The position numbers and the translations under genes were made by a program. This document shows positions 5,387-38,283 of a stretch of 39,099 bases of DNA, piece after piece (positions within the stretch are counted from its first letter, which is position 1; every line of letters begins with the position of its first letter). The DNA is from a bacterium (GTDB lineage: Bacteria; Hydrothermota; Tepidihabitantia; B3-TA06): positions 1 to 39,099 of the forward strand of contig JAAYVC010000010.1 of NCBI GenBank assembly GCA_012517375.1. The letters run 5' to 3'. The notes beneath the pieces were generated by a model that saw nothing but the letters and a program-made list of their open reading frames with translations, had not been told where the DNA came from and made no database searches.

Positions 5387-6396
5387 ATGACGAGATGAAG
5401 CCTGATAAAAAGCCCCAACCTAAGACAAAGACATGGAAAAAGGTTCTGAGATGGACTATACAAATAGCAATAATTGGAGCAATCGTTTTTTTCCTTACCA
5501 GAACGGTTGTAAAAAACTGGGAACAGGTTAAGGATTTTCAATGGAATTTTAATCCCTGGTTTTTGATTCTTTCCTTTGTTGCTTTGGGCGTAACGCTTTT
5601 CTATATGATTGTTTTATGGCGAGGGCTGCTTATTAAGCTAGGGGGGAGTGTCGGGCTCCCGTCGGCCATAAGGATTTTCGCAATCTCGTCCATGGGCAGA
5701 TACCTGCCCGGTAAAGTCTGGCAGATAGCCGGAATGGTATATCTTGGACAAAAAGAGGGCGTGCGTGCTGAGACGGGCGTTTGGGCTGCAGTGCTCGCGC
5801 AGATATTGGCCGTGCTTGCAGGGATATTATTCTTTTCCGTATCCCTGATTGTCGAACCGCAAAGAATTCTTTTACCTTTCATGAAAAGCCTGGGCGTCAA
5901 TAACTTCTCGCCGTACTGGCTTCTTCTGCCCGTATTGCTCGTTCTGGTACTGATCCACCCGAGGATTCTGAAAGGTTTCACAAACTGGCTCTTGAGAATC
6001 CTTAAACGAGAACCTCTCGAGTTCAATCTTTCATACATCAGATTGCTTTCTTTTTTCCTTTTATATGTGCTGAGCTGGTTTTTTTACGGAATCACTTTTT
6101 ATCTGTTCGTTTCATCCATACACCCTGTACCTTTAACCGACTGGTTCGTAATATCGGGTTCTTTCGCAGCTGCATATATAGTAGGGCTTCTGGCGCTCTT
6201 CGTCCCCGGAGGCCTGGGTGTCAGAGAAGGAATTCTTGCCTTGTTTCTTGCCGGATTGGTCGGGTCAGGGGTAGCCGTTGCTATTTCTTTCGGCCAGAGG
6301 CTGTGGTTCACGATTATTGAGTTGACTTTAGTGTTAATTGCCGTTATCTTTATGCGGAGGAAAAATGTCAAAGAAGAAACCGACGAAAAAAAATGA
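5383..6396 (+). CDS. LPG-synthase-TM/UPF0104-type integral membrane protein
   Basis: The 337-residue polytopic protein has a short Lys-rich cytoplasmic N-terminus and about eight hydrophobic segments. It carries hallmarks of the lysylphosphatidylglycerol synthase transmembrane-region family (PF03706): a GRYLPGKVWQIAG segment in the middle and PGGLGVREG near residue 280. Stand-alone members often sit in glycan loci and are proposed to act in lipid-linked sugar handling. No aminoacyl-transfer domain is attached, so lysyl-PG synthesis is not indicated. The start is either TTG at 5383, overlapping the previous stop, or ATG at 5395; I keep TTG because of the overlap. The 3' end overlaps the next gene by 32 nt. 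Confidence 0.8.
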   Translation: MNDEMKPDKKPQPKTKTWKKVLRWTIQIAIIGAIVFFLTRTVVKNWEQVKDFQWNFNPWFLILSFVALGVTLFYMIVLWRGLLIKLGGSVGLPSAIRIFAISSMGRYLPGKVWQIAGMVYLGQKEGVRAETGVWAAVLAQILAVLAGILFFSVSLIVEPQRILLPFMKSLGVNNFSPYWLLLPVLLVLVLIHPRILKGFTNWLLRILKREPLEFNLSYIRLLSFFLLYVLSWFFYGITFYLFVSSIHPVPLTDWFVISGSFAAAYIVGLLALFVPGGLGVREGILALFLAGLVGSGVAVAISFGQRLWFTIIELTLVLIAVIFMRRKNVKEETDEKK

Positions 6397-8947
6397 ACCG
6401 AAACAAATCCAAGAGAAAGCAACAGTTACTGCCCCGGAGTACAAAATAGGCTGGGGCTGGCTTCTTTTAGGTCTCAGCATACTCGTGTTCCTTTTATTCG
6501 CAAACACTCTTGCCAGAGGTCACTTGATCCAGGGTTCAGACCAGCTGCTGGCAGGATACATGTTCAAATCTTTCGCTCAGGATGCAATTCGGACAACAGG
6601 TCAGATGCCGCTTTGGAATCCATACATCTTTGCTGGCCTGCCCTACATAGATGCCCTTCACGGCGATGCTTTGTATATTACGGCTTTCTTAAGGCTCGTC
6701 TTTCCAGTAGGAACGGTGATGTCGCTCGTTTTCATTATTCAAATCATTGTTGCAGGAATCTTCACTTACGGTTTCCTTAGAACATTGAAGACAAGCCAAG
6801 CTGTCGCCTTAATCGGCGCTATTGCATACATGTTCACGGGTGTGATGGTCACCCACGTTGTGTCCGGGCACGACGGAAAAATCATCGTTTCATCCCTTCT
6901 GCCCGCCGGGTTGTTCTTGATACAGAAAGCATTCGATCCCGAAACAAGGCGGCAGCTCATGTGGTTTTCGCTCCTCGGACTCGTGATAGGTCTTGCACTG
7001 CTCTCTCCTCACGTTCAGATGACCTACTACATGCTGATGATGATGGCCTTCTACATCATATTCAAGCTCCTTGCTCTCGGCATCAAGGAGAAGCGCTGGG
7101 GATTCGGTGCAAAAAGCCTCGGCCTTTCCTTCGGCTCCCTTGCATTAGGCTTTGCCATATCGGCGATTCAGTTCCTGCCTTCTATAGCCTATCTTGCATT
7201 CTCGCCAAGAGGCGAAGGCGGAAGGGGGTGGGAATGGAACACTTCCTGGTCAATGCCGAGGCTTGAGGTCTTCGATCTCTTTAATGCAAGGTTCTCGGGA
7301 ATACTCGAGAACTACTGGGGTCCTAACGCATTCAAGCAGCACTCGGAGTACTTCGGGATTATAATAATGGCTCTGGCGATTGTCGGAATCATCTTAGCCT
7401 GGAAGCGCAAGGAGACCAAGTTCTTTATGGGGTTTTCACTTTTCGGATTGCTGATGTCGCTCGGAGGCAATACCTTCTTTTACAGAATCCCATACGAGAT
7501 TTTTCCGCTTCTCAAAAGCTTCAGGGCGCCTGCGATGATATTCTTCACGGTTGCTTTTTCCTCCGTAGTGTTAGCTGCCATGGCACTTGAGGAAATCATT
7601 AATGCTCCACCCAAACCCCAGAAGGAAAGACGGAAAAAGCCTGATATAGCCCTACTCGTATTTTCGATCATAGGTGGACTGATGGCTATACTGGCGATAT
7701 GGTCTTCCGCGGACCCCTCAGGATTCGGCAATTTCGTCTCGGGACTGGCACGGGGGGAGCTTATGCAGACCAACGGACCTGAAAGAGCTCAAGCCCTGCT
7801 TTCAAGGATGCAGGCAAACATACGGAACGCCTCCAATGGCTTCTGGTTAAGCTTTCTCTTCCTCGCCGGGGGTTTGTTGGTGATTCTTCTCTGGCGGCGT
7901 TTCAAAAAACTTACTTTGATTTGGGGTCTTGCGCTTGCAGGCTTAGTGTTTGTCGATCTGTGGCTTGTAGACCGTCACTTTGTAGATATTGTTAGGGACC
8001 GGAACGGCAATCCCATATCGGCAGAGGAGCTTTATGCACCAGATGAAGTTGTCAACTATCTTAAGGCTGACAACGGGATTTATAGGGTTTTCCCGCTTCA
8101 GTATATGGGCAACGACCTCTACCGCAGGGACGACTATCTTATGCTGCACGGAATCCAGTCCGTAGGCGGCTATCACGGCAATCAGCTGGAGCGCTACCAG
8201 GAGTTTATCGGCGCCCCGCACACCATCATGTTCCGCGACGCTTCAAATCTTCGCTATCCCGCTTTTCTTTCATTGCTGGACGTCAAGTACTTGATATCGT
8301 TAAGACTGCCTGAGATGGCTGACATAGACCGATATGCAGCCCAGGATCAGGCCATGATACGGGCGTTGTACTCCGAGCTCGGAACTTGGATAGACACTAC
8401 TCAGAGTACTTTCAAACCTGTATACCTGGGTCAGAACTACGCGATATACAGGAACTCAGCCCCAGTATCACGTGCGTGGCTTGCCTCGAATATCGAGGTA
8501 ATTAAGGACGATAAGGCGATTCTATCAAGAATCGCGCAAAAGGATTTCGACCCACACAGGGACGTTATTCTTGAAGAAAAACCCGGCGATTGGTTGAATT
8601 CCGCAGATACATCTTCGCCCGGCTACGTTAGCATAACGAGATACGAACCTAATGTTATTGAGTTGAAAACGGACGTAAAGCGGTCTTGCGTGCTTGTATT
8701 ATCGGAAAACTGGTACCCGTGGTATCGCGCATGGGTTGACGACAAGGAACAAAAGGTCTACCGCGCGGACTATACTTTGAGAGCGGTGGTTCTTAAGCCG
8801 GGCATGCATAGGATTGAGTTTCGCTTCAAGTCGCCGTATGTGACTGCAGGCGTCTGGATTACCTTTATATCCCTCGGCCTGGTCGGGCTGGCCGTGGCGC
8901 TCTCTCTAGTATCGATTAAGCGCAAGGACAAGAAAACAACCGGCTAA
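6365..8947 (+). CDS. YfhO-family large membrane protein (glycosyltransferase-like)
   Basis: The 860-residue protein has a Lys-rich N-terminus and a dozen or so transmembrane segments. Its C-terminal extracytoplasmic beta domain contains the segment NWYPWYRAWVDDKEQ and a final transmembrane helix, typical of YfhO (PF09586). Members resemble GT-C type membrane glycosyltransferases; YfhO has been linked to glycosylation of lipoteichoic acid in Bacillus. Acidic and His-containing loops early in the protein (HLIQGSDQLL, DALHGDALY) are the usual catalytic region. The ATG at 6365 follows GGAGG at 6356-6360; an upstream in-frame ATG at 6338 lacks such a site. It is the last gene of the operon and is followed by a strong terminator. 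Confidence 0.85.
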   Translation: MSKKKPTKKNEPKQIQEKATVTAPEYKIGWGWLLLGLSILVFLLFANTLARGHLIQGSDQLLAGYMFKSFAQDAIRTTGQMPLWNPYIFAGLPYIDALHGDALYITAFLRLVFPVGTVMSLVFIIQIIVAGIFTYGFLRTLKTSQAVALIGAIAYMFTGVMVTHVVSGHDGKIIVSSLLPAGLFLIQKAFDPETRRQLMWFSLLGLVIGLALLSPHVQMTYYMLMMMAFYIIFKLLALGIKEKRWGFGAKSLGLSFGSLALGFAISAIQFLPSIAYLAFSPRGEGGRGWEWNTSWSMPRLEVFDLFNARFSGILENYWGPNAFKQHSEYFGIIIMALAIVGIILAWKRKETKFFMGFSLFGLLMSLGGNTFFYRIPYEIFPLLKSFRAPAMIFFTVAFSSVVLAAMALEEIINAPPKPQKERRKKPDIALLVFSIIGGLMAILAIWSSADPSGFGNFVSGLARGELMQTNGPERAQALLSRMQANIRNASNGFWLSFLFLAGGLLVILLWRRFKKLTLIWGLALAGLVFVDLWLVDRHFVDIVRDRNGNPISAEELYAPDEVVNYLKADNGIYRVFPLQYMGNDLYRRDDYLMLHGIQSVGGYHGNQLERYQEFIGAPHTIMFRDASNLRYPAFLSLLDVKYLISLRLPEMADIDRYAAQDQAMIRALYSELGTWIDTTQSTFKPVYLGQNYAIYRNSAPVSRAWLASNIEVIKDDKAILSRIAQKDFDPHRDVILEEKPGDWLNSADTSSPGYVSITRYEPNVIELKTDVKRSCVLVLSENWYPWYRAWVDDKEQKVYRADYTLRAVVLKPGMHRIEFRFKSPYVTAGVWITFISLGLVGLAVALSLVSIKRKDKKTTG

Positions 8948-24530: not shown

Positions 24531-26543
24531 TCAGCCGCTCTTACCTAGAGCGGCGAGCTTGGTCTGGGCGCGTTCAAGGTTCTTGCGTGCGTTCGAGTGG
24601 TTTGGGTCTATTGAAAGAACCTTCTGCCAGTAGGAGATGGCGAGTTCGTAGTTGTTTTCGGAGTAGGATTCAACACCCAGAAGGTAGAGCTTCTGAGCGT
24701 CCTGCGACGACTTCTGAGCGGCCTTCTGAATCTGGGCAAGATTCTCCTGAGCCTGTTTATTTGCAGGGTCGAGTTCGAGAGCCGCTTTCAGTTCCTTCTC
24801 CGAACGTGCCGGGTCCTTGCTCTGCTGTTCCTGCGCACGTTCGAGCCGGCGCTGGACGTCTTCGCTGACCTTTGAATCAATCTCGCCTATCTTCTGCAGA
24901 AGCTCCGCGTTCTGCGGCGCCACCTTTAGAAGTTCCCTAGTCTTGTTTTTGGCTTCGGAATACCTGCTCATGGATATGAGAGAGTTGACAGTGGCCATCT
25001 CCTCCTTGATGTAGCGGTCAACCTCTGCCTGTGTCTTGCGGATGTAGTCCTGCGCCACCGCGTTCGAAGGGTCGTAGTCAAGAACCTTCTCGAACGACCT
25101 CATCGCCGTAAGGTAATCCCGGCCCGTAAGCGCCTCGATGCCCTGTCTGAGGTCCGACTGCAGCGCCGCGGGCGCTTTTGAAATGAGCTCCTCCGCGAGA
25201 CCCTTCTGCGCCTCTTCTTTGTAGAAGAGTGCGAGGCTGTGCGAGGGATCCCTTGCGAGTATCTCTTCCGACATGACGGCAAGCGAAACGTAGTTCTTGC
25301 TCACGTAGGCCTGCTTAGCCTGATCGACGAGCGCCTGGAGAGCCATCTTGTCCTTTTCGGCAGAGACTTTGGCTATCATGCTCTGCGCATCCGCGTTGTC
25401 GGGCCACCATATGAGGGCCATATCCCAGCTCTCGAGCGCATCGTCGTAGCGGCTCATGTTATACTGCGAAACTCCCTGCTCATAAAGGCTCTGGCTGGTC
25501 TGCTTCTGAAGCTCAAGCGCCCTCTTCAAGGCCTCCTTCTGAGCTTCGGCAAGCAGGCGCTCCTTCTCCTCGGCGCTGGTTCCGAAGTGAAAACCCACGT
25601 CTATTCCGTGAAAACCTCCGGCGCCGAAACCGTTCGTGCTCGGCAAGTAGGAGTAGTTGACCTCAAGGTTCGCGAGCCTCAAGCCGAATCCCAGAGAGAG
25701 ACCGTTGAGCGCGCCTGCGGATATTCGTTCGGTATTGTAGCCGGCGCGAAGCGAAAAAACACTCCATGGCGAGTACTCCACTCCCGCGGCGGCTACGATG
25801 CCCCTTGCATTGCCGTAGCCTGCACTGGCGAGCAGCAGCAGTTTTTTATCAAAGAGCGAATATCTCAGGGAACCGGACAGATTAAGGGGTTGAGGATTGC
25901 CTGCGCTGTCTGCGGTATCCCCGACGAAGTAGAATCTGGGCCCGATATTCTGAACAACGAATCCGAGTCCAAGGTTGTCAAAATCCTGGTAGGCGCCGAT
26001 ATCAAGACCGACCTTGTTATCCGTAAAGGCCTCGCCTTCTTGACCGGGGTTGTACCCAAGCGATACGGTTTGCGCCTTGAGGCCGGCCCCCACGCTGAAT
26101 GGTCCGAACCTGCGCGCAAACGATATAGCCGGTATGGCTGCTACGACGGATGTGTTTTCTACGTAGTAGTCAGGATTGTTCGGGTCGGGTCTGATCTCGA
26201 TGCCGCCGACGGTTGCGGCCTTGAGACCGACGCAGAAGGTGCCGAACTTGAAGGGGAAAAGGCCGATGAAACCCAGTGAATTGACGAATCCCATGTTCTG
26301 CTCGCCCGCAATGACGGCTATCTGGGAGGCGAACGCCGATGTAGCAGGATTGTTGTAAAGGCTGAAGCGGTCCGCAGGGACGGCGCCAAGCGCTTCCGCT
26401 AAGGCAAGTCCCCTGGCTCCGAAGGAAACGTCAAGAATCGACAGGCCTGGGAAAGATACGGTGTCAACCGGCTGGGCGAAAACGGAGACAGCGGACAGCA
26501 ATGCAAGAATGAGCAGGGCTTTGATGAATCCTCTATTCCTCAT
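24531..26543 (-). CDS. PorV-like outer-membrane barrel fused to a TPR domain
   Basis: The 670-residue protein has a signal peptide (cleavage near VFAQP, residue 23). A region of about 300 residues resembles PorV/UPF0164 barrels: GARGLALAEALGAVPADRF followed by SLYNNPATSAF, then alternating aromatic and Gly-rich strands up to the VGFHFG strand. A helical linker (KERLLAEAQKEALKRALEL) leads to five or six TPR-like repeats from about 345 to the end (EQGVSQYNMSRYDDALESW; GVESYSENNYELAISYWQK). In T9SS, PorV captures the C-terminal domain of cargo at the outer membrane; a TPR tail would add a periplasmic binding surface. It is translationally coupled (ATGA) to the upstream gene, which encodes a cargo-like protein. 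Confidence 0.82.
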   Translation of the reverse strand: MRNRGFIKALLILALLSAVSVFAQPVDTVSFPGLSILDVSFGARGLALAEALGAVPADRFSLYNNPATSAFASQIAVIAGEQNMGFVNSLGFIGLFPFKFGTFCVGLKAATVGGIEIRPDPNNPDYYVENTSVVAAIPAISFARRFGPFSVGAGLKAQTVSLGYNPGQEGEAFTDNKVGLDIGAYQDFDNLGLGFVVQNIGPRFYFVGDTADSAGNPQPLNLSGSLRYSLFDKKLLLLASAGYGNARGIVAAAGVEYSPWSVFSLRAGYNTERISAGALNGLSLGFGLRLANLEVNYSYLPSTNGFGAGGFHGIDVGFHFGTSAEEKERLLAEAQKEALKRALELQKQTSQSLYEQGVSQYNMSRYDDALESWDMALIWWPDNADAQSMIAKVSAEKDKMALQALVDQAKQAYVSKNYVSLAVMSEEILARDPSHSLALFYKEEAQKGLAEELISKAPAALQSDLRQGIEALTGRDYLTAMRSFEKVLDYDPSNAVAQDYIRKTQAEVDRYIKEEMATVNSLISMSRYSEAKNKTRELLKVAPQNAELLQKIGEIDSKVSEDVQRRLERAQEQQSKDPARSEKELKAALELDPANKQAQENLAQIQKAAQKSSQDAQKLYLLGVESYSENNYELAISYWQKVLSIDPNHSNARKNLERAQTKLAALGKSG

Positions 26544-29500
26544 TTCACCACCACGAAAGGCTTTATAACGACGCCATCCGGCAGACTGTCGTCCTCCGCG
26601 ACGAGCCTGAAGAAGTAAACGTCAGGACCGAGCCCGGAGATGTCGACCTCAAGGAACTTCCGTGCACCTTTGACTATTGCATCGCCGTCGCTCGCCTCAT
26701 AGAACGATATTCTCTTACCCCTTGCCGTGTATATCTCGAGCTCGACGCGTGTGGCGTCGGCGCTGAGGTTGTAGTAAATCTTTGCAGTACTCTGCCTTAC
26801 CGCCGGATTAGGTAAAAAGAAGACCTGCGCTGGATCCATTAGCACGGTGGTATCCTGCTGATTTTCGACTATGTTAAGGGTATCCTCGACTTTAGCGCTT
26901 AGGCTCCCCAGATGCGCCTCGGCAATAACCCTGTAGCCCCCAAGCGCCAGTTTCATGGTTGTGCTGTCTTTATAGAAGACCGTTAGAGAATCGTATGAAA
27001 CGGAGTCAGCCGGAGGATAGAGGGAATCAGGCCAGAACTCGGCGCCTGTCTCGTTCTCCAGATGAATCTGCATCGAATTCACAATCCTGTGCGATTTTGC
27101 GGCCAATGAAAGCGGGCTGCCCTGAAGCAGGGATTTCTGGGAGTAGAGTGTTAGGATGATGGTGTCAGCAGGCGGAGCCTCGCCCAGAGGAACCAGCCTC
27201 ACGAAGTACGGCTTGTTTACGCCCTCTGTCCATGCAATTAGGGGCTGAGCGTCGGAGTACGTGCACTGGGGGAGCTGAGGGAAGAAGGCGCTGCCTGATG
27301 GGGTTTGGAGCTGGGGAGTTCCCCAAAGCGTAGCGGTGCGCTGGTTGAAATATACGGCGCCTGCAGCCTGCCATGCCGCGGTAATTTTTCCAGCGGCGTT
27401 GACGTTGCACGTAATATTCATTGCAAATCCGGGGTACCCTTTGAGTTCAGCAGCGCTTCCCCAGCTGCCTGCGGTACGCTCCCTGAAGAAAAGCTTGCCT
27501 GCACCGTCGGTATAGAGAAGGTAGATTTTGTCGTCGCCCAGGGAGGTTGCGGAAAGCTCGACAACGCCCGACGTATTGTCCTTTGGCTCAAGCGTTCCTG
27601 GCCCGTTCCAGATATAATCATATCCTGTCGACCCGCGGCTATAGAATATGTGCACGCCGTCCGACGCCCTTAGGATATCCAGATCGGTAAAAGCGTCCGT
27701 TCCTGTTTCCGAAAAAACGGTATCCAGCACCCATGCGCCGGATGCGCGGTGATAGAGCTCTCCTGTCTCGCCGCTGGGGGACTTCTTAACTACCGCTACA
27801 AGAGGAGTGCTGTCCTTGGCTACCGCCACTGCCAACTTCATGATGTCTTCACCGTTGGGCAGTGCGGCAAGCGTATCGGTCGTGAAGGAGCCGGTGTGGT
27901 GAAGGGCGAAAAGACCCACTGTTCCGTCGGTTCTACGCTCAGTCCATGCCCGCCAGTGAGTGCCGTCCTGGGCCATCGCAAGGCTTGCAAGCGTTGTCTT
28001 TGAATCTTTTGTGTTGCTTAAATCCTGACCCAGAAAGAAATGACCCGTAGCTGTGCTGTCTGCAACCCCGAAGAGTTCGGGCACGTCAAGGCTGCGGTAG
28101 AGAAGGTAGCCCAGGTCTCCGCCCGCCTGAGGGTACTGCAGGAGGAGACGTGTTCCCGACGTCGCGTCGGTGGACGTGCTCTGCGGAGGATTGCCGATTA
28201 TGAGCGCTATGGAAGCGCTCGCCTCGCCCGACGCCTCGCCCGACTGTCCCTGGAAGGTTGCCGTATATACGCCCGCAGGCGCAAGCCAGCCTGATTCCGT
28301 AAAGCCGTCCCATGTAAAGTCCTGCGCCGGTTTTGTCGCGCCGGACTGGTAATAATACACGTTGTCAGCGGTATCTCTTATCGAGACGCTCCACGATGTG
28401 ACCTTCATGAAATCATCGCCGTCCAGATGGAATACGGCTTTTGCGCCTATCTCCGGCGAGAAGCTGCCCGCTTCGGCCGTCATTGAGAGCTTGAGATCAT
28501 CGGGGGGTCCCGAAACAGTAAACTGCGCATAGTTTATGCCCGTCGCCGTGGCGACATACACGTGACCGATCTGAGTCTGGCTGTCAAGTTTTACAGCCAG
28601 ATCGTGCACATCGCCCTGTAAGGGCGAGGCGATTCTCGTCCAAGTTTTCCCCGTATCGGTGGTGAAGAAGACCGAAATCTCGGAACCTGAAACGGCGGCC
28701 GCCACGAGCAGACCGGCTGAGGAAGTGTCCGCCGCAATAGCCCTCACGATGCCGGAAGTGGGAGGTCCCTGGAAATTGCTCCACACCTCTCCGGAGTTTG
28801 AGCACGTGTAAATCTTGCCTGTACTGCCGAGCATGAAGAGTCTGCCTCCTCCTCCAGCCTCGAGCAGAATCCCGTTGGCAGCGGGAAGCGCGACAGGCAC
28901 CTTTTCAACTTGACCCGATGCGTTCGTGCGGTAAAGCCCATTGACGGTCAAAAGGAACATTTTGCCGCCGTCCGAAGGAGCGTAGGTCATATCTAGCGGC
29001 TGTTCTTTTGCAAGGTCCAGCGCCTGGTCCGATGTAGCGCAGGCATCGTCGCTGTGATAGACGACGAAGGACGGGGCTTCGGACGGGAAGTTTTGCCTCG
29101 TTACGAACCAGCATTCCCTGGGGTTCGAAAGGTTTGCGGATGCGAGAATGACTGAGCGGCCCTCTGCATCGGGGTGCTGGACCCATCCCTCCGCGCCGTT
29201 GGCTGAGCTGGCTATGCCTAAGGAGTTGCCTGCGTAGAGATAGACCGTCGAGTAGGTTCCCTTTGCCGAAGTAAGACAGAGCGAGACAGGCGTTTCAGCG
29301 AACCCGTGTCGTTTCCATGTCAGTGCGCCGTCAGGGCTTTTATATATCCCGCCGCCCAGGGAGGCGGCGTAGCACATCTTGGGGTACTGCGGGTCTATCT
29401 CAAGACCCATGAAGGTCTGGGCTTTGAGATTTCCGTAGACTGACCATCCGGACACCGAGCTTGTATACACATTGTCAGACATGCCCGCGATGCCTGAAAC

Positions 29501-30385
29501 TGCAAGAGGCGATGTAGAACTCAGGCAGTATGCATCCAGGGATGAAAGACCCTCGTTTGAGTCAGTCCAAGCAGACGACCCGCCTAGATTGGAGATAATC
29601 CCCCTGTTCGTGGCTGCCCATATGCTGGCGCCCCACACATAAAAATCCTTGATAATCCTGTCGCTGTAAGAAACATCCGGCTGCCATGCGAGAGTGGACG
29701 ACTCAACGAAAGCGACGCCATTCGCAGTTCCGACAAAAATCCTGTCCCCAATCCAACCCATGGAAACAACTCTTCCCGCAAGACCCGAAGGCATGTAGGT
29801 CGAATCCTCCCAGTTCTTCGAAGTCAGCGGATTCCAGATTTTAACGACCCTTGAACCCTCGATAGAAATGGCTGCCTTGTCCCGCTCCGGTTTGGCGGAA
29901 ATGGCCGCAATCTCCCTGCCCGGGAATGCCCAGCTTTCGTCGACCTGTACGAATCTTTTTGCCTGAAACCAATCGTACTTCCAAACGCCGTGACTGCGCG
30001 TTGCGGCAAAAAACGAGTAGATAGAGTCAATGACAGGTACTATTCCCACGACATCGGCATCGGCAGGAATACCCTCGAGATTGCTCCATGTTACTCCCGA
30101 ATCCCGGCTGATGAGGAGTCCGTGCTTGCGCGTGCATGCAACAAGACTGTCGCCGAACATTACAAGCTTGTTTATACCGGCGTCCTTCAGGAGATTGAGG
30201 TTGGGGGTATCAATCCTTTTCCAGGCGGGATCGCTCCCACGTCTGTAGAGTCCCTGATCGGTGTATGCATAGGTAACGCCGTTTCCTGCGGCAAGCGCAT
30301 GGACAAACCCGCCATCGGGTCCAGAGCCCTGCCACTGGCTTAACAGGGACAGGGTAAAGAGTATCTTAGGCAGAAACACCATCAT
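26540..30385 (-). CDS. Giant secreted Asp-box/propeller protein with T9SS-type C-terminal domain
   Basis: The 1281-residue protein begins with a hydrophobic signal-like segment. It contains several Asp-box (BNR) motifs: RDSGVTW near 95, PDGALTW near 352, NSGEVW near 530 and DTGKTW near 578, as in beta-propellers of the sialidase/VPS10 type. A FlgD-like Ig segment follows (SFSPEIGAKAVFHLDGDDF ... GVYTATF), then a second propeller-like stretch. The last 80 residues (FFLPNPAVRQSTAKIYYNL ... ELEIYTARGKRI ... GPDVYFFRLVAEDD) form a Por-secretion-type C-terminal domain. I infer surface display or release; no catalytic residues were identified. The ATG at 30385 is at the predicted transcription start, and its TGA overlaps the PorV-like gene start. 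Confidence 0.8.
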   Translation of the reverse strand: MMVFLPKILFTLSLLSQWQGSGPDGGFVHALAAGNGVTYAYTDQGLYRRGSDPAWKRIDTPNLNLLKDAGINKLVMFGDSLVACTRKHGLLISRDSGVTWSNLEGIPADADVVGIVPVIDSIYSFFAATRSHGVWKYDWFQAKRFVQVDESWAFPGREIAAISAKPERDKAAISIEGSRVVKIWNPLTSKNWEDSTYMPSGLAGRVVSMGWIGDRIFVGTANGVAFVESSTLAWQPDVSYSDRIIKDFYVWGASIWAATNRGIISNLGGSSAWTDSNEGLSSLDAYCLSSTSPLAVSGIAGMSDNVYTSSVSGWSVYGNLKAQTFMGLEIDPQYPKMCYAASLGGGIYKSPDGALTWKRHGFAETPVSLCLTSAKGTYSTVYLYAGNSLGIASSANGAEGWVQHPDAEGRSVILASANLSNPRECWFVTRQNFPSEAPSFVVYHSDDACATSDQALDLAKEQPLDMTYAPSDGGKMFLLTVNGLYRTNASGQVEKVPVALPAANGILLEAGGGGRLFMLGSTGKIYTCSNSGEVWSNFQGPPTSGIVRAIAADTSSAGLLVAAAVSGSEISVFFTTDTGKTWTRIASPLQGDVHDLAVKLDSQTQIGHVYVATATGINYAQFTVSGPPDDLKLSMTAEAGSFSPEIGAKAVFHLDGDDFMKVTSWSVSIRDTADNVYYYQSGATKPAQDFTWDGFTESGWLAPAGVYTATFQGQSGEASGEASASIALIIGNPPQSTSTDATSGTRLLLQYPQAGGDLGYLLYRSLDVPELFGVADSTATGHFFLGQDLSNTKDSKTTLASLAMAQDGTHWRAWTERRTDGTVGLFALHHTGSFTTDTLAALPNGEDIMKLAVAVAKDSTPLVAVVKKSPSGETGELYHRASGAWVLDTVFSETGTDAFTDLDILRASDGVHIFYSRGSTGYDYIWNGPGTLEPKDNTSGVVELSATSLGDDKIYLLYTDGAGKLFFRERTAGSWGSAAELKGYPGFAMNITCNVNAAGKITAAWQAAGAVYFNQRTATLWGTPQLQTPSGSAFFPQLPQCTYSDAQPLIAWTEGVNKPYFVRLVPLGEAPPADTIILTLYSQKSLLQGSPLSLAAKSHRIVNSMQIHLENETGAEFWPDSLYPPADSVSYDSLTVFYKDSTTMKLALGGYRVIAEAHLGSLSAKVEDTLNIVENQQDTTVLMDPAQVFFLPNPAVRQSTAKIYYNLSADATRVELEIYTARGKRISFYEASDGDAIVKGARKFLEVDISGLGPDVYFFRLVAEDDSLPDGVVIKPFVVVK

Positions 30386-30999: not shown

Positions 31000-31091
31000 G
31001 CCGGCCGAGTTTAAGCTGACAAAAAATCGATTTTAATAGCTTAATGTATTGAATTGCTTAAACTTAAACGCTTATAGCAAATCAAAAACCC

Positions 31092-31119
31092 TTGACAGGG
31101 TCTTTTTTCGGACTATTAT
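31092..31119 (+). promoter_or_regulatory. Promoter of the adhesin-like gene
   Basis: TTGACA (31092-31097), a 16 nt spacer and TATTAT (31114-31119). Transcription near 31126 gives an 80-nt leader ending in AGGAGG before the ATG at 31208. Confidence 0.65.
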
Positions 31120-31207
31120 TAACTATAGAATTCAAGGGAAGGGATCGGGGCTGTTACGCAGGATGGGCTACAATAATTCAGAGTTAAACCTTGTACAGGA
31201 GGTTTTA

Positions 31208-32767
31208 ATGTTAAAAATCAACAGTCTTAAGAAGATCATCACCATTGTTGCAGTTTTGTTGCCGTTGGGGGCCATTCTCAATGCTCAGCCGGTTCCTCTG
31301 CTTACCGAAGGATTTGAGGGTTCTTTTCCTCCGGCAGGCTGGTCTACAAGTCAGACCCAGGGAAACAACCAGTGGAACCGCAACGACTTCTATTCCAGGC
31401 CCAACTACACCCCGGGAGCTACAGGCTACTGCGCAGACAACGATGACGACGCTAATTCAAACCAGTCGCGCGTGGGCAACAATGCCCTAACCTCGAAGAC
31501 GTTCGACGCGACCGCTTTCCAGGTCGTCTGCTTAGCCTGGGATGTTGACTGGTACCCTAAACCAGGGCTCGTGGAGCTTCAGGCGATGGTGCAGGTTACG
31601 AACGGTTCCGGCGGATGGGTTACCGTAAAGAGCTACATCCCAGGTTCACGCGTAACTACAAGGGACAGCGTTAACATATCCGCCCAGGCTGCAGGAAAGG
31701 CGAACAACCAGGTCAGGTTCGTCTACAATGAGCTCTCAGGCGGAATAAAATCCTACTGGTACGAGATTGACGACGTGTCCGTATGGGGTTCAATGCCTTA
31801 CCCGCCTCCCGAGACGCTCGACCTTGGGATTTCTGAGATACTGCGTCCTTTAGACCACGAAGATCCAGGCATACCGTTCTTCCCTTCGTGCAGGGTATCC
31901 AACAACCTCGACACCACTGCGCATGCAACAATCCGGTGCGTTATGAAGGAGATGGTTACTCAAAACACCGTTTACGACGACGCCCTCACGAACTATTCAT
32001 GTACTCCGGGATATACAACCGTGACCGGGTTCGAAGCGTTTGTTCCCCTTGCCAACAAGGTTTATACAGCGACATTTACCGTGCAGCATCCGGACGATAA
32101 AATCCCTATGAACAACAGCATGAGCAAGAACTTCAACGCCTCACAGGTGGAATACGAAATTACCCCGATTCTGATGACGCTTCCCAATGTTCCTGATCAG
32201 TATGGCGCGTTTGTGCCCACCGCCGATTACGCCGAGAAGCTCGGAAACCAGGTAGACCACCCGGCCCTGCGCTGCAGAATAGCAAGACTTGAAGACATGG
32301 AACAGGTTTATGAAGACTCGATAGGCGTTACAGCCTTTATGCCTTACGATACGGTGACTGCCGAGTTCGATACAGCGTTTCTTGATACCTCGACCTATGT
32401 AATTACTTTCTGGGCTACCGATATCTACGTAGTCAACATAAGCAACCCTGTCTGGGTGGATACATTCAACGTGCTCGAAGGCATCGCTGAAGCGCCTGCA
32501 GACGCCAATACCAGCCTGGATATCACGACATCCGCTCTTTTCAATGCGGGAGTGGGACTCTCCTATTCGATTGCGAAGACTTCATACGTCAACCTGAGCG
32601 TATACGATGCGCTTGGCAGAAAGGTCGAAACGCTTGTGGACGCAAGAAAGCCGAGCGGCACATACTGCATTTCATGGAACGCTGCCGACGTTCCCCAGGG
32701 AGTGTACTTCGTAAAACTTACCGCTCCCGGTGTCGCGCTCTACAGAAAGGTAACGAAAATAAAGTAG
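31208..32767 (+). CDS. Secreted cleaved-adhesin-like protein with T9SS-type C-terminal domain
   Basis: The 519-residue protein starts at ATG 31208 after AGGAGG at 31197-31202; upstream in-frame ATGs lack such a site and lie before or near the promoter. The signal peptide ends near LNAQP (residue 25). The next 200 residues resemble the cleaved-adhesin/choice-of-anchor J jelly roll (EGFEGSFPPAGWS ... WYEIDDVSVWG). Ig/CARDB-like segments follow. The last 80 residues are a typical Por-type sorting domain (LSYSIAKTSYVNLSVYDALG, RKVETL, SGTYCISWNAADVPQGVYF, VKL). It is probably displayed on or released from the cell surface. It is monocistronic, and a weak CCGGC hairpin lies at 32787-32805 after the stop. 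Confidence 0.82.
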   Translation: MLKINSLKKIITIVAVLLPLGAILNAQPVPLLTEGFEGSFPPAGWSTSQTQGNNQWNRNDFYSRPNYTPGATGYCADNDDDANSNQSRVGNNALTSKTFDATAFQVVCLAWDVDWYPKPGLVELQAMVQVTNGSGGWVTVKSYIPGSRVTTRDSVNISAQAAGKANNQVRFVYNELSGGIKSYWYEIDDVSVWGSMPYPPPETLDLGISEILRPLDHEDPGIPFFPSCRVSNNLDTTAHATIRCVMKEMVTQNTVYDDALTNYSCTPGYTTVTGFEAFVPLANKVYTATFTVQHPDDKIPMNNSMSKNFNASQVEYEITPILMTLPNVPDQYGAFVPTADYAEKLGNQVDHPALRCRIARLEDMEQVYEDSIGVTAFMPYDTVTAEFDTAFLDTSTYVITFWATDIYVVNISNPVWVDTFNVLEGIAEAPADANTSLDITTSALFNAGVGLSYSIAKTSYVNLSVYDALGRKVETLVDARKPSGTYCISWNAADVPQGVYFVKLTAPGVALYRKVTKIK

Positions 32768-35564: not shown

Positions 35565-36530
35565 TCACCACATCTCGTCCGGTTTTTCCTTAAAATCGGG
35601 CCTGTGATGGAGCTCCACACCCAGCCCCTCCTGCACCCAACCATTTGAAAATCCGAGACTTACCATGTAGTCCGTAGCCTCCTGATACTCCGCGCGCGTA
35701 AGGGTTCTATCGTACGCTGTGCCTTGCATGTTGTGCGTCGGGAAGTACTGCCCCATAAGCGATATAGCTACGTTACTTCCAAGCGTGTCGCTCAGCATCC
35801 GCAGGACCAGCTTCGTGTTCTCCAGCTCTCCTGGAATTATCAAGTGACGTATTATAAGACCCTTATGCGCAACACCCTGGGAATCGAGTTCCAAGTCTCC
35901 AACCTGCCTGTACATCTCCGCCAGCGCTGCGCGGTTGACTCGTGGATAGTCTGGGGCAGTGGAGAGTGTCTTTGCAAGTTCAATGTCTGCGTATTTTGCA
36001 TCGGGCAGATAGATATCGACGATGCCTTCCAGAAGTTCGAGCGCATCCAGGCTTTCGTATCCCGAGCAGTTGTAGACAAGCGGGACGGTAAGTCCTTCAT
36101 TTATAGCGATTTGTAGTCCTTCGAGCAGCCACGGCAGGTAATGGGACGGCGTGACCCAGTTTATGTTATGTACCCTCGCGGTTTGCAGTTCAAGCATCCC
36201 TGTCGCGAACTCGTGGAGACCGATGTCATGGCCTTCGCCCTCGATGCTTAACTGCCAGTTTTGACAATACTTACAGCGCAGGGAGCAGTGCGAGAAGAAG
36301 ACGGTGCCTGACCCTTGTGTTCCGGAGAGCGCAGGCTCCTCTCCCCTATGACGTATGAATCTGGAAATACGCAACTTATTGCTTGCGCCGCAAAAACCTC
36401 TCTCGCCTTCAAGTCTCTTTACCCCGCAGTTGCGTGGGCACAAGCGACAATCTTTAGCGAGGTTATACGCTTCTTTGATCCGATTGTTAAGCTCGCCCGA
36501 TCCGGCGAGCGCTATGTAACGCGGCTGCAT
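35565..36530 (-). CDS. Radical SAM protein, PflX / pyruvate-formate-lyase-activase-like (COG1313 type)
   Basis: The 321-residue protein has the radical SAM CxxxCxxC motif CSLRCKYCQ (Cys82, Cys86, Cys89) and the PflX-type N-terminal cysteine cluster CRLCPRNCG...GFCG (Cys28, Cys31, Cys35, Cys47), which may hold a second metal or Fe-S site. Later blocks include WVTPSHYLPWLLEGL, PLVYNCSGYESLDAL, DIYLPDAKYAD and ISLMGQYFPTH, as in this family. Members resemble glycyl-radical activating enzymes, but their substrates are generally unknown, and no glycyl-radical enzyme gene is in the window. The ATG at 36530 coincides with the predicted transcription start. It is apparently monocistronic. Confidence 0.88.
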   Translation of the reverse strand: MQPRYIALAGSGELNNRIKEAYNLAKDCRLCPRNCGVKRLEGERGFCGASNKLRISRFIRHRGEEPALSGTQGSGTVFFSHCSLRCKYCQNWQLSIEGEGHDIGLHEFATGMLELQTARVHNINWVTPSHYLPWLLEGLQIAINEGLTVPLVYNCSGYESLDALELLEGIVDIYLPDAKYADIELAKTLSTAPDYPRVNRAALAEMYRQVGDLELDSQGVAHKGLIIRHLIIPGELENTKLVLRMLSDTLGSNVAISLMGQYFPTHNMQGTAYDRTLTRAEYQEATDYMVSLGFSNGWVQEGLGVELHHRPDFKEKPDEMW

Positions 36531-36536
36531 GCTGGG

Positions 36537-36564
36537 ATTGTAATCAAAACTCGCAAACAGTCAA
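36537..36564 (-). promoter_or_regulatory. Promoter of the radical SAM gene; leaderless start
   Basis: On the minus strand, TTGACT (36564-36559), a 16 nt spacer and TACAAT (36542-36537). The ATG at 36530 is 7 nt past the -10 box. The promoter sits in the 50-nt gap after the preceding gene's stop. Confidence 0.75.
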
Positions 36565-36580
36565 CTTATGTATAAGGACG

Positions 36581-37429
36581 TCAGGGGCTAGTGACTACCC
36601 ACCGCAGGCCTGAAACCAATTGGTAACCGAGTTTAAGCGTTGCTTGGTAAATGCTACTCGGCTCAGTAAGAGCTGTTACATATATCTTTCCAAAATGACC
36701 GGTTGTGTCGTACACACCATCGTCATCGAGCCAGAAACCGTAGACCCCGTTGTTTTGAATTGGCGTCTCGTACTTGAAGTACTCGTTTGTTGGCGCAGGA
36801 ACTATCTTTAGCGAATCATATATTGCTCTAATCTGGCATGTGGAGTTGTGTTCCGTGTTTAAAGGATTTGGAGGATGTATGTGCGGCGATATAAAGCAAG
36901 GGGTGTTTTCTGCATCTATGCCTAAATAGATATCGACCTGGTCAGAATTGTTGAATGTCGAATATGCTGTGGCTGTTCCGTTTTCGATGAAGCCGAACCC
37001 GGATGGGTGTTCGGGTGACGGATCGTTTATGCTCCAGACTTCGAGGTAAGGGGTTTCAACAATGGCTAGGTCAATAGTTTCACGATGTGATTCAGATTCA
37101 CCTAAAACTCCTGATACTCCTATAACCTTGGTTGCAGTGTAGACGTAATAAAAAAACGAATCCGTTCTGCCTATTTCTTTATCGTCAACATATATGACAT
37201 ATTCAACTTCTTCCTTTTGTTTATCGCACGAAAAGAACCCCCCGTTATTAGAACTGCTACTTTGATAGTATTGCGGTTCCCATTCAAGCTTAATAGCACC
37301 ACCCTCGCCAGCCATCGAGTCGGGAATTACCTGATAACGTAGATTCTGTACGGGTTCCCATGGCGGGGTGCCTATCATCACTGCAACTGCTATCAACAAC
37401 AAAGCTGCGATACTGGCTTTCAGTTTCAT
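36581..37429 (-). CDS. Secreted protein of a local paralogous family, copy 3
   Basis: The 282-residue protein has a signal peptide (MKLKASIAALLLIAVAVMIG). The mature start EPVQNLRYQV, the middle YLEVWSIN...GFGFIENGTATAYS and the end FGKIYVTAL...LGYQLVSGLRWVV align with the upstream neighbour (DPVQD..., LIEVYS...GIGFDSTGKASAYS, FAKAYVTSI...IAYQPVPGLRWVV). Two beta-sandwich (Fn3-like) units are likely. Its ATG overlaps the previous stop (ATGA), so it is translationally coupled. No family was recognised and no catalytic motif is seen. It may be a surface or periplasmic binding protein. Confidence 0.75.
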   Translation of the reverse strand: MKLKASIAALLLIAVAVMIGTPPWEPVQNLRYQVIPDSMAGEGGAIKLEWEPQYYQSSSSNNGGFFSCDKQKEEVEYVIYVDDKEIGRTDSFFYYVYTATKVIGVSGVLGESESHRETIDLAIVETPYLEVWSINDPSPEHPSGFGFIENGTATAYSTFNNSDQVDIYLGIDAENTPCFISPHIHPPNPLNTEHNSTCQIRAIYDSLKIVPAPTNEYFKYETPIQNNGVYGFWLDDDGVYDTTGHFGKIYVTALTEPSSIYQATLKLGYQLVSGLRWVVTSP

Positions 37430-38283
37430 CTTGTCGTCTCTTCAACGAAATATTCAACTACCACCCACCTCAGGCCGGGCACAGGCTGATAGGCGATTCG
37501 TAGTGAGACCCTGCCATCCGCGATACTTGTTACATACGCCTTGGCGAAGAAATCGTCGGTCGAATAGTCCTTCTCACCCTGATCTAGGTACAGGGAGTAA
37601 ACTGAACCCTGCGCTATTGCGGTCGAGTCCTGGTAGGTCGCGGCGGAGACAGAAGGCGTGATAAGGAGAGAATCGAAGCTCTCGGAAGCGCTACAGACGC
37701 CTCTGACGCCACCCGAGTAGCACTCGCCCGATTTGAGGAACGTTGTTTCTCCGGATTCGTCGGTTGAAACGAAATAGTCCACAGTCGCAGGAGAATCTTC
37801 AACGGAATACGCCGAAGCCTTGCCTGTAGAGTCGAAACCTATGCCGGTCGGTCCCTCGGTTTCGCTTGAGTAGACTTCTATCAGGGATTCAAGCGCGGCT
37901 ACGGATAGTTCCTTTGAGCCTAAGAACCCGTAGCCTACTTCATATGCGTCTATTGTAATTCTCGCCCCGGGCGTGTAGAGCGTGCACGAAACGGTCTTGT
38001 CGAGGTCATCGGATTCAACGGTAACCGAATCCTGAGGCGCGCTGTCGACCGACAGAACGAACTTTACCTGACCGTCCGCGATGTAGTCCTGGTAGCATCC
38101 ACCCTCTCTTAAAAAAAGCCTCGTGTCGCTCTTAAATGAGACTTGCACCCCTCCCCCCGGGTTCCCTGCTCCGTCTTCGACCGGGGTGCACTTAGCATCC
38201 TGAACGGGATCAATCTCCGGCCCTGCAAAAAGCACAAAAACGGATAAGAGAATTAGACTTAATACTTTGATGATTCTACTCAC
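37426..38283 (-). CDS. Secreted protein of a local paralogous family, copy 2
   Basis: The 285-residue protein starts at GTG 38283, 6 nt after AAGGAG. The signal peptide (MSRIIKVLSLILLSVFVLFAG) is followed by EIDPVQDAKCTPVEDGAGNP with GGGVQVSF, then an acidic, Ser/Thr-rich beta-type sequence with a few Cys. The C-terminus IAYQPVPGLRWVVVEYFVEE shares the PGLRWVV/SGLRWVV block with the next gene, where that block is almost terminal. The N-terminal block EPVQ/DPVQ plus NPGGG is also shared with the broken copy upstream. It is translationally coupled to the downstream paralog. Function unknown. Confidence 0.75.
   Translation of the reverse strand: MSRIIKVLSLILLSVFVLFAGPEIDPVQDAKCTPVEDGAGNPGGGVQVSFKSDTRLFLREGGCYQDYIADGQVKFVLSVDSAPQDSVTVESDDLDKTVSCTLYTPGARITIDAYEVGYGFLGSKELSVAALESLIEVYSSETEGPTGIGFDSTGKASAYSVEDSPATVDYFVSTDESGETTFLKSGECYSGGVRGVCSASESFDSLLITPSVSAATYQDSTAIAQGSVYSLYLDQGEKDYSTDDFFAKAYVTSIADGRVSLRIAYQPVPGLRWVVVEYFVEETTR

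Follow-up and report, generated by a model that had tools for sequence, protein, structure and literature searches.

We suggest that two adjoining genes of candidate division WOR-3 (Ca. Stahlbacteria) encode a cognate cargo and shuttle/anchor pair of the type IX secretion system (T9SS), a reading to which we assign a probability of about 0.6 and which is drawn from sequence comparison and predicted folds. The genes lie in a 39,099-nucleotide stretch of contig JAAYVC010000010.1 (assembly GCA_012517375.1), hereafter the window, and are read from its minus strand, as are all their parts given below. The cargo gene A (positions 26540-30385) comes first and starts with ATG; its 1281 residues make up a T9SS cargo-like surface protein with an Asp-box/propeller passenger and a probable C-terminal sorting domain (CTD). 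Gene B (24531-26543), also with an ATG start, encodes 670 residues, a PorV/PorQ-family barrel fused to a tetratricopeptide repeat (TPR) tail. The junction reads ...GTGGTGAAATGAGGAAT..., where the TGA stop of A and the ATG start of B share ATGA (26543-26540). Open reading frames and sequence thus bear out the giant cargo-like gene and the barrel-TPR gene with an ATGA junction that an earlier note on this DNA had described. The computed part of the argument consists of the domains of both proteins, this junction, the pairing across the phylum, the grouping of the CTDs, the exchange of tails and the presence of SprA and PorU.

The product of B is a family paralogue of PorV by profile and fold. 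It reaches 99.0 bits against NF033709, the NCBIfam model of the PorV/PorQ family (cut-off 90). It falls below both equivalog cut-offs, with 53 bits for PorV (NF033710, cut-off 250) and 22.8 bits for PorQ (NF033711, cut-off 220), and is therefore not PorV itself. A putative Sec signal peptide (residues 1-23, 26475-26543) is read from the sequence (..SAVSVFA-Q) and is helical at 4-19 in the AlphaFold2 model. It is followed by a 14-stranded PorV-like barrel with two plug helices (residues 35-319, 25587-26441) and, after a long first helix, by a TPR solenoid whose last repeat is the most conserved (residues 324-668, 24540-25574; TPR_2, E 5e-14). The model was built with ten window-or-locus sequences and has a mean predicted local distance difference test score (pLDDT) of 73, best in the tail and moderate in the barrel. 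Within the PDB, Foldseek finds the model closest to chain 6h3i_F, the PorV of the SprA translocon (E 4e-8), with PorV from the RemA-CTD complex (8gl6_F) in second place. The 14-strand architecture proposed earlier for the N-terminal region is thus supported by both model and fold match. Of the PorV/UPF0164-like assignment, the PorV half stands, and the UPF0164 half is not supported, with no Pfam match at E<=0.1; the TPR tail is present, with about 345 residues instead of about 320. Membership of PorP/SprF was rejected as well, with no PF11751 match for B (E<=0.1) and none in its genome.

FadL is also among the fold matches of B, and the same order, a 14-strand barrel and then a periplasmic TPR, has been modelled in Treponema pallidum (PMC8407342). 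B might then be, like TP0548, TP0859 and TP0865, a FadL-like channel for uptake that has no relation to its neighbour and uses the TPR part as a dock. We hold this to be very unlikely: PorV is the better fold match (E 4e-8 vs 4e-5 for FadL), the NF033709 cut-off is passed, and an uptake channel leaves unexplained the conserved upstream CTD partner that is found in 32 cases, as described below.

In A, an Asp-box/sortilin-type propeller region occupies residues ~20-620 (28526-30328), as indicated by NCBIfam and Pfam matches (F510_1955 with 80 bits; Sortilin-Vps10) and by a low-confidence all-beta AlphaFold2 model (residues 82-1281, 5 sequences, pLDDT 49). The Foldseek matches of this model include sortilin-type and GH74 propellers; the template modelling (TM) scores of these matches are very low, and they are used only for the term ‘all-beta’. 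A FlgD-type Ig domain (FlgD_ig) lies mid-protein (residues 662-716, 28236-28402; PF13860, 35.9 bits, cut-off 27). The protein ends with a probable T9SS CTD of the group of TPR-barrel partners (residues 1190-1281, 26543-26818), as indicated by TIGR04183, which is weak alone, by the alignment of 42 upstream C-termini and by the CTD trees. Orthologues of A in genomes of the same family are 31-33% identical.

The pair recurs throughout the phylum, and this recurrence suggests a dedicated secrete-and-hold display system. A phylum search, followed by region fetches and a neighbourhood script, finds 32 PorV-TPR genes directly downstream of a CTD protein, usually a giant one, in 26 genomes of 14 families. 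The conserved neighbourhood that the earlier note had proposed to look for in relatives is thus phylum-wide. Half of the junctions (16 of 32) overlap by 4 nucleotides and most others lie within ~50 nucleotides; three larger overlaps are probably over-called starts. TIGR04183 matches (E<=0.05) are present in 38 of the 42 upstream C-termini, a set that comprises the partners of TPR- and OmpA-tailed barrels and a few doubtful cases. Few genes carry a CTD (~100-124 places in the whole genome of the window), yet 32 PorV-TPR genes directly follow one, and hence the pairing goes beyond chance. Exceptions are a TPR barrel beside a short non-CTD neighbour (L154) and one genome in which the cargo is split over several frames (L076). 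A contig scan with a closer alignment set, the 17-sequence alignment being too divergent for this use, gave 9 loci, all in WOR-3, although its two narrow patterns say little on other phyla.

The genome of the window has two TPR pairs and one OmpA pair. In the second TPR pair (C77) a 1076-residue FG-GAP protein with a CTD is followed, with a 4-nucleotide overlap, by a 620-residue PorV-TPR protein. In the OmpA pair (C18) a 1044-residue FG-GAP protein is followed, again with a 4-nucleotide overlap, by a 612-residue PorV barrel with an OmpA domain; the sequence of this barrel protein further shows a carboxypeptidase-regulatory-like stretch, in which it resembles the C-terminal half of PorE. Like the TPR barrels, the OmpA-tailed PorV-family barrels (L061:3367-5205; L160-L171) sit behind CTD proteins. 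At L065:6795-8276 (G000:C118) a weakly PorV-like barrel of 493 residues combines a coiled-coil-like stretch with an OmpA domain.

The PorZ of Porphyromonas gingivalis, a propeller protein that retains its CTD, goes together with the PorV-family barrel PorQ. A is likewise a propeller protein with a CTD adjoining a barrel of the PorV/PorQ family, 36 of the 42 partner CTDs match the PorU tail model, and a PorU-V-Q-Z attachment complex is known (PMC5562754, PMC8545088). A and B might then be PorZ/PorQ-like (or PorU/PorV-like) machine parts that process other cargos. We consider this unlikely, since no PorZ match to A appears at E<=0.1 and a better candidate for a PorZ/PorQ pair exists elsewhere in the genome (L068:2625-5957 and 5969-7060, G000:C5), where a 1110-residue protein with a weak C-terminal PorZ match (E 6e-5) precedes a tail-less 363-residue PorV-like barrel. 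The passenger folds also vary between pairs, and the two TPR pairs plus one OmpA pair of this genome are ill-suited to a single core component.

Over the whole set of pairs, the passengers include Asp-box/sortilin, FG-GAP, Big_5/fn3 (Ig/fn3 stalks) and CBM9-like types, with the barrel, TPR and CTD persisting. Phmmer links 95 of the 325 passenger pairs, and 176 pairs of CTDs, 212 of barrels and 301 of TPR tails. Passenger, CTD and tail act as modules separate from one another. In the barrel tree the TPR barrels do not resolve into a single clade (3 changes, weak forks), whereas the OmpA barrels come together at 94/97.

The CTDs divide according to barrel type, which adds support to a dedicated display pair. 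In a first tree all TPR-barrel partners (32/32) lie on one side of a branch with support 98/93, opposite the generic CTDs of the same genome as the window and the partners of OmpA barrels. The generic set had been drawn from the best TIGR04183 matches, and the tree was hence repeated with 40 own-genome CTDs across the whole score range. In this larger tree two generics fall in with the 26 TPR partners (91/81) and 37 generics stand apart (91/89); the approximately unbiased (AU) test neither rejects nor proves one clade (p 0.33). The CTDs of OmpA-barrel partners form their own group (97/91), joined by the own-genome orphans C99 and C49, which have no adjoining barrel in the fetched stretches; a comparable orphan, C65, lies close to the TPR group. 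Orphans of this kind (L215:1213-4419, L216:8506-9645, L217:5336-8164), with CTDs in the TPR or OmpA partner groups and no adjacent barrel, resemble the orphan type B cargos of Flavobacterium johnsoniae.

Divergent from gene A in the window is a plus-strand gene (31049-32767) for a 572-residue protein; its sorting domain exceeds the TIGR04183 cut-off and groups with the generic CTDs. Farther on, the minus-strand stretch 35565-38283 holds a weak radical-SAM-like gene preceded by two adjoining genes (36581-37429 and 37426-38283) that have no Pfam match.

Parts of the secretion system itself are encoded in this genome, which comprises 2.54 Mb on 125 contigs and is 96.9% complete. SprA (326 bits summed, cut-off 200) and PorU (450 bits, cut-off 420), for which a search had been proposed, are both present, together with 11 PorV-family barrels and ~97 TIGR04183 CTD places over the cut-off (124 at E<=0.1). 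SprA matches occur in 145 of 147 genomes of the WOR-3 phylum; example loci for SprA and PorU are G000:C119:1-4824 (L073) and G000:C22 (L072:7354-11205). Directly downstream of a PorV-family barrel gene lies a gene for an 886-residue TPR protein (L067:3554-6214, G000:C9) whose PorW/SprE match, at 43.6 bits, stays below the threshold.

The TPR tail could also serve docking. A TPR lipoprotein, PorW/SprE, connects Sov with PorN (PMC8754138), and PorV is described as shuttling between the translocon and the attachment complex (PMC5562754). A tail of this kind might recruit the barrel to the SprA translocon or its ring and make B a high-turnover shuttle, not a static anchor. We regard this as quite unlikely. 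The TPR arrays of PorW are not its PorN-binding part (PMC8754138), and the GldM model has no match in 21 genomes and the GldL model none in 11, in searches run with no positive control; the link from the TPRs to motor components suggested in the earlier note thus gains no backing. Furthermore, an OmpA domain stands in the same place in sister barrels, and this exchange of OmpA for TPR points to cell-wall or periplasmic anchoring rather than to a motor.

We suggest the following course for the cognate pair. A would pass the inner membrane via Sec and leave the cell through SprA in the outer membrane. Its CTD, which belongs to a group distinct from the bulk CTDs of the genome, would then be received by the PorV-like barrel of B, and the lasting, non-covalent contact would keep A at the surface. 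If B has the PorV topology, its TPR solenoid is periplasmic, and it may fix the complex to another envelope component, the role that a separate PorE has for SprF/PorP-type shuttles; the OmpA cell-wall domain would fill the same place in the sister systems. Secretion of A, binding of its CTD by B, retention at the surface and a partner of the TPR tail are what we infer here from the computed features.

Several observations weigh against this assignment. Taken alone, the CTD of A scores 14-19 bits against TIGR04183, below the curated cut-off of 23, and it becomes recognisable in context, with the 38 matching C-termini upstream of such barrels. The N-terminus of A, read from sequence, is a short hydrophobic putative signal peptide without a clear AXA site. 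The CTD trees rest on ~107 columns, and in the larger one the support is modest and the generics come from one genome, whereas the partners come from many. A lone PorV-TPR subtype without a cargo upstream exists (L063:8056-9945; L083, L088, L091, L101, L148) and is one clade in the barrel tree (99/93). Finally, linked inheritance of an operon can alone yield matching CTD and barrel groups. Hence, of the one-to-one coupling and dedicated surface display pair put forward in the earlier note, the adjacency holds in 32 cases and the 14-strand barrel, the conserved neighbourhood and the CTD grouping favour a pair that we deduce from sequence, but strict one-to-one coupling is not borne out, given the orphan CTDs (C65, C99, C49) and the lone subtype.

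For WOR-3 as a whole, we see even odds that at least three parallel shuttle classes work on one T9SS translocon, where tail-less PorV would serve bulk cargo, PorV-TPR and PorV-OmpA would serve dedicated surface proteins, and every class would recognise a CTD group of its own. The sorting of cargo after SprA is an open question in T9SS, and the pairs in WOR-3 point to a split of PorV-type barrels, too, into CTD-specific lines that carry a built-in periplasmic anchor. If true, PorV-type barrels would here have their first cognate CTD/shuttle code, and shuttle and anchor would for the first time be united in one chain. For structural studies such a chain, combining CTD receptor and anchor, would be a simple target, and the exchange of passengers hints at a natural platform for display. 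Reviews confine T9SS to Bacteroidota or the Fibrobacteres-Chlorobi-Bacteroidetes (FCB) group, whereas the present matches place its translocon in nearly every WOR-3 genome searched. In the open-access PubMed Central (PMC) literature, subscription papers being outside its scope, we find no paper joining PorV and WOR-3 and none on T9SS in WOR-3.

The closest known arrangement is that of the type B cargos, whose cognate PorP/SprF shuttles are encoded next door, with PorE added in some sets (PMC12618676, PMC9143113, PMC5053529). Cognate type B CTD/shuttle pairs have been described (PMC12618676), and PG1035-PorP-PorE and SprB-SprF have been shown as complexes (PMC9143113). As in PG1035-PorP-PorE and Fjoh_3952-3951-3950 of F. 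johnsoniae, the cargo gene in WOR-3 is followed by its own barrel with cargo-specific pairing, a periplasmic TPR/CRD/OmpA part (CRD, carboxypeptidase regulatory domain) is tied to the barrel, several paralogous sets occur per genome, and orphan cargos may share a shuttle (PMC12618676, PMC9143113). Unlike in those sets, the WOR-3 barrel is of the PorV/PorQ family and forms one chain with the periplasmic part, and the CTD is TIGR04183-like instead of type B. PorE (PG1058), a periplasmic TPR/propeller/CRD/OmpA protein, shares the TPR with B and the carboxypeptidase-regulatory-like stretch and OmpA domain with the C18 paralogue, but it is a separate lipoprotein with a propeller (PMC5053529), whereas in WOR-3 the periplasmic domains follow the barrel in one chain. 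With PorV and its type A cargos the WOR-3 pairs share the barrel fold and family, the CTD fold family and the presence of SprA and PorU. However, the known PorV is tail-less and in Flavobacterium one PorV serves all type A CTDs, type B CTDs having cognate SprF shuttles (PMC12618676), while the tailed WOR-3 paralogues are each linked to one cargo of a separate CTD group. The FadL orthologues TP0548, TP0859 and TP0865 of T. pallidum also combine a 14-strand FadL-type barrel with a C-terminal, TPR-bearing helical bundle in the periplasm (PMC8407342), but they are described as uptake proteins and their motif spans only two helices. Altogether, the WOR-3 pairs resemble the type B arrangement, built here on a PorV-type barrel that carries the periplasmic module in its own chain.

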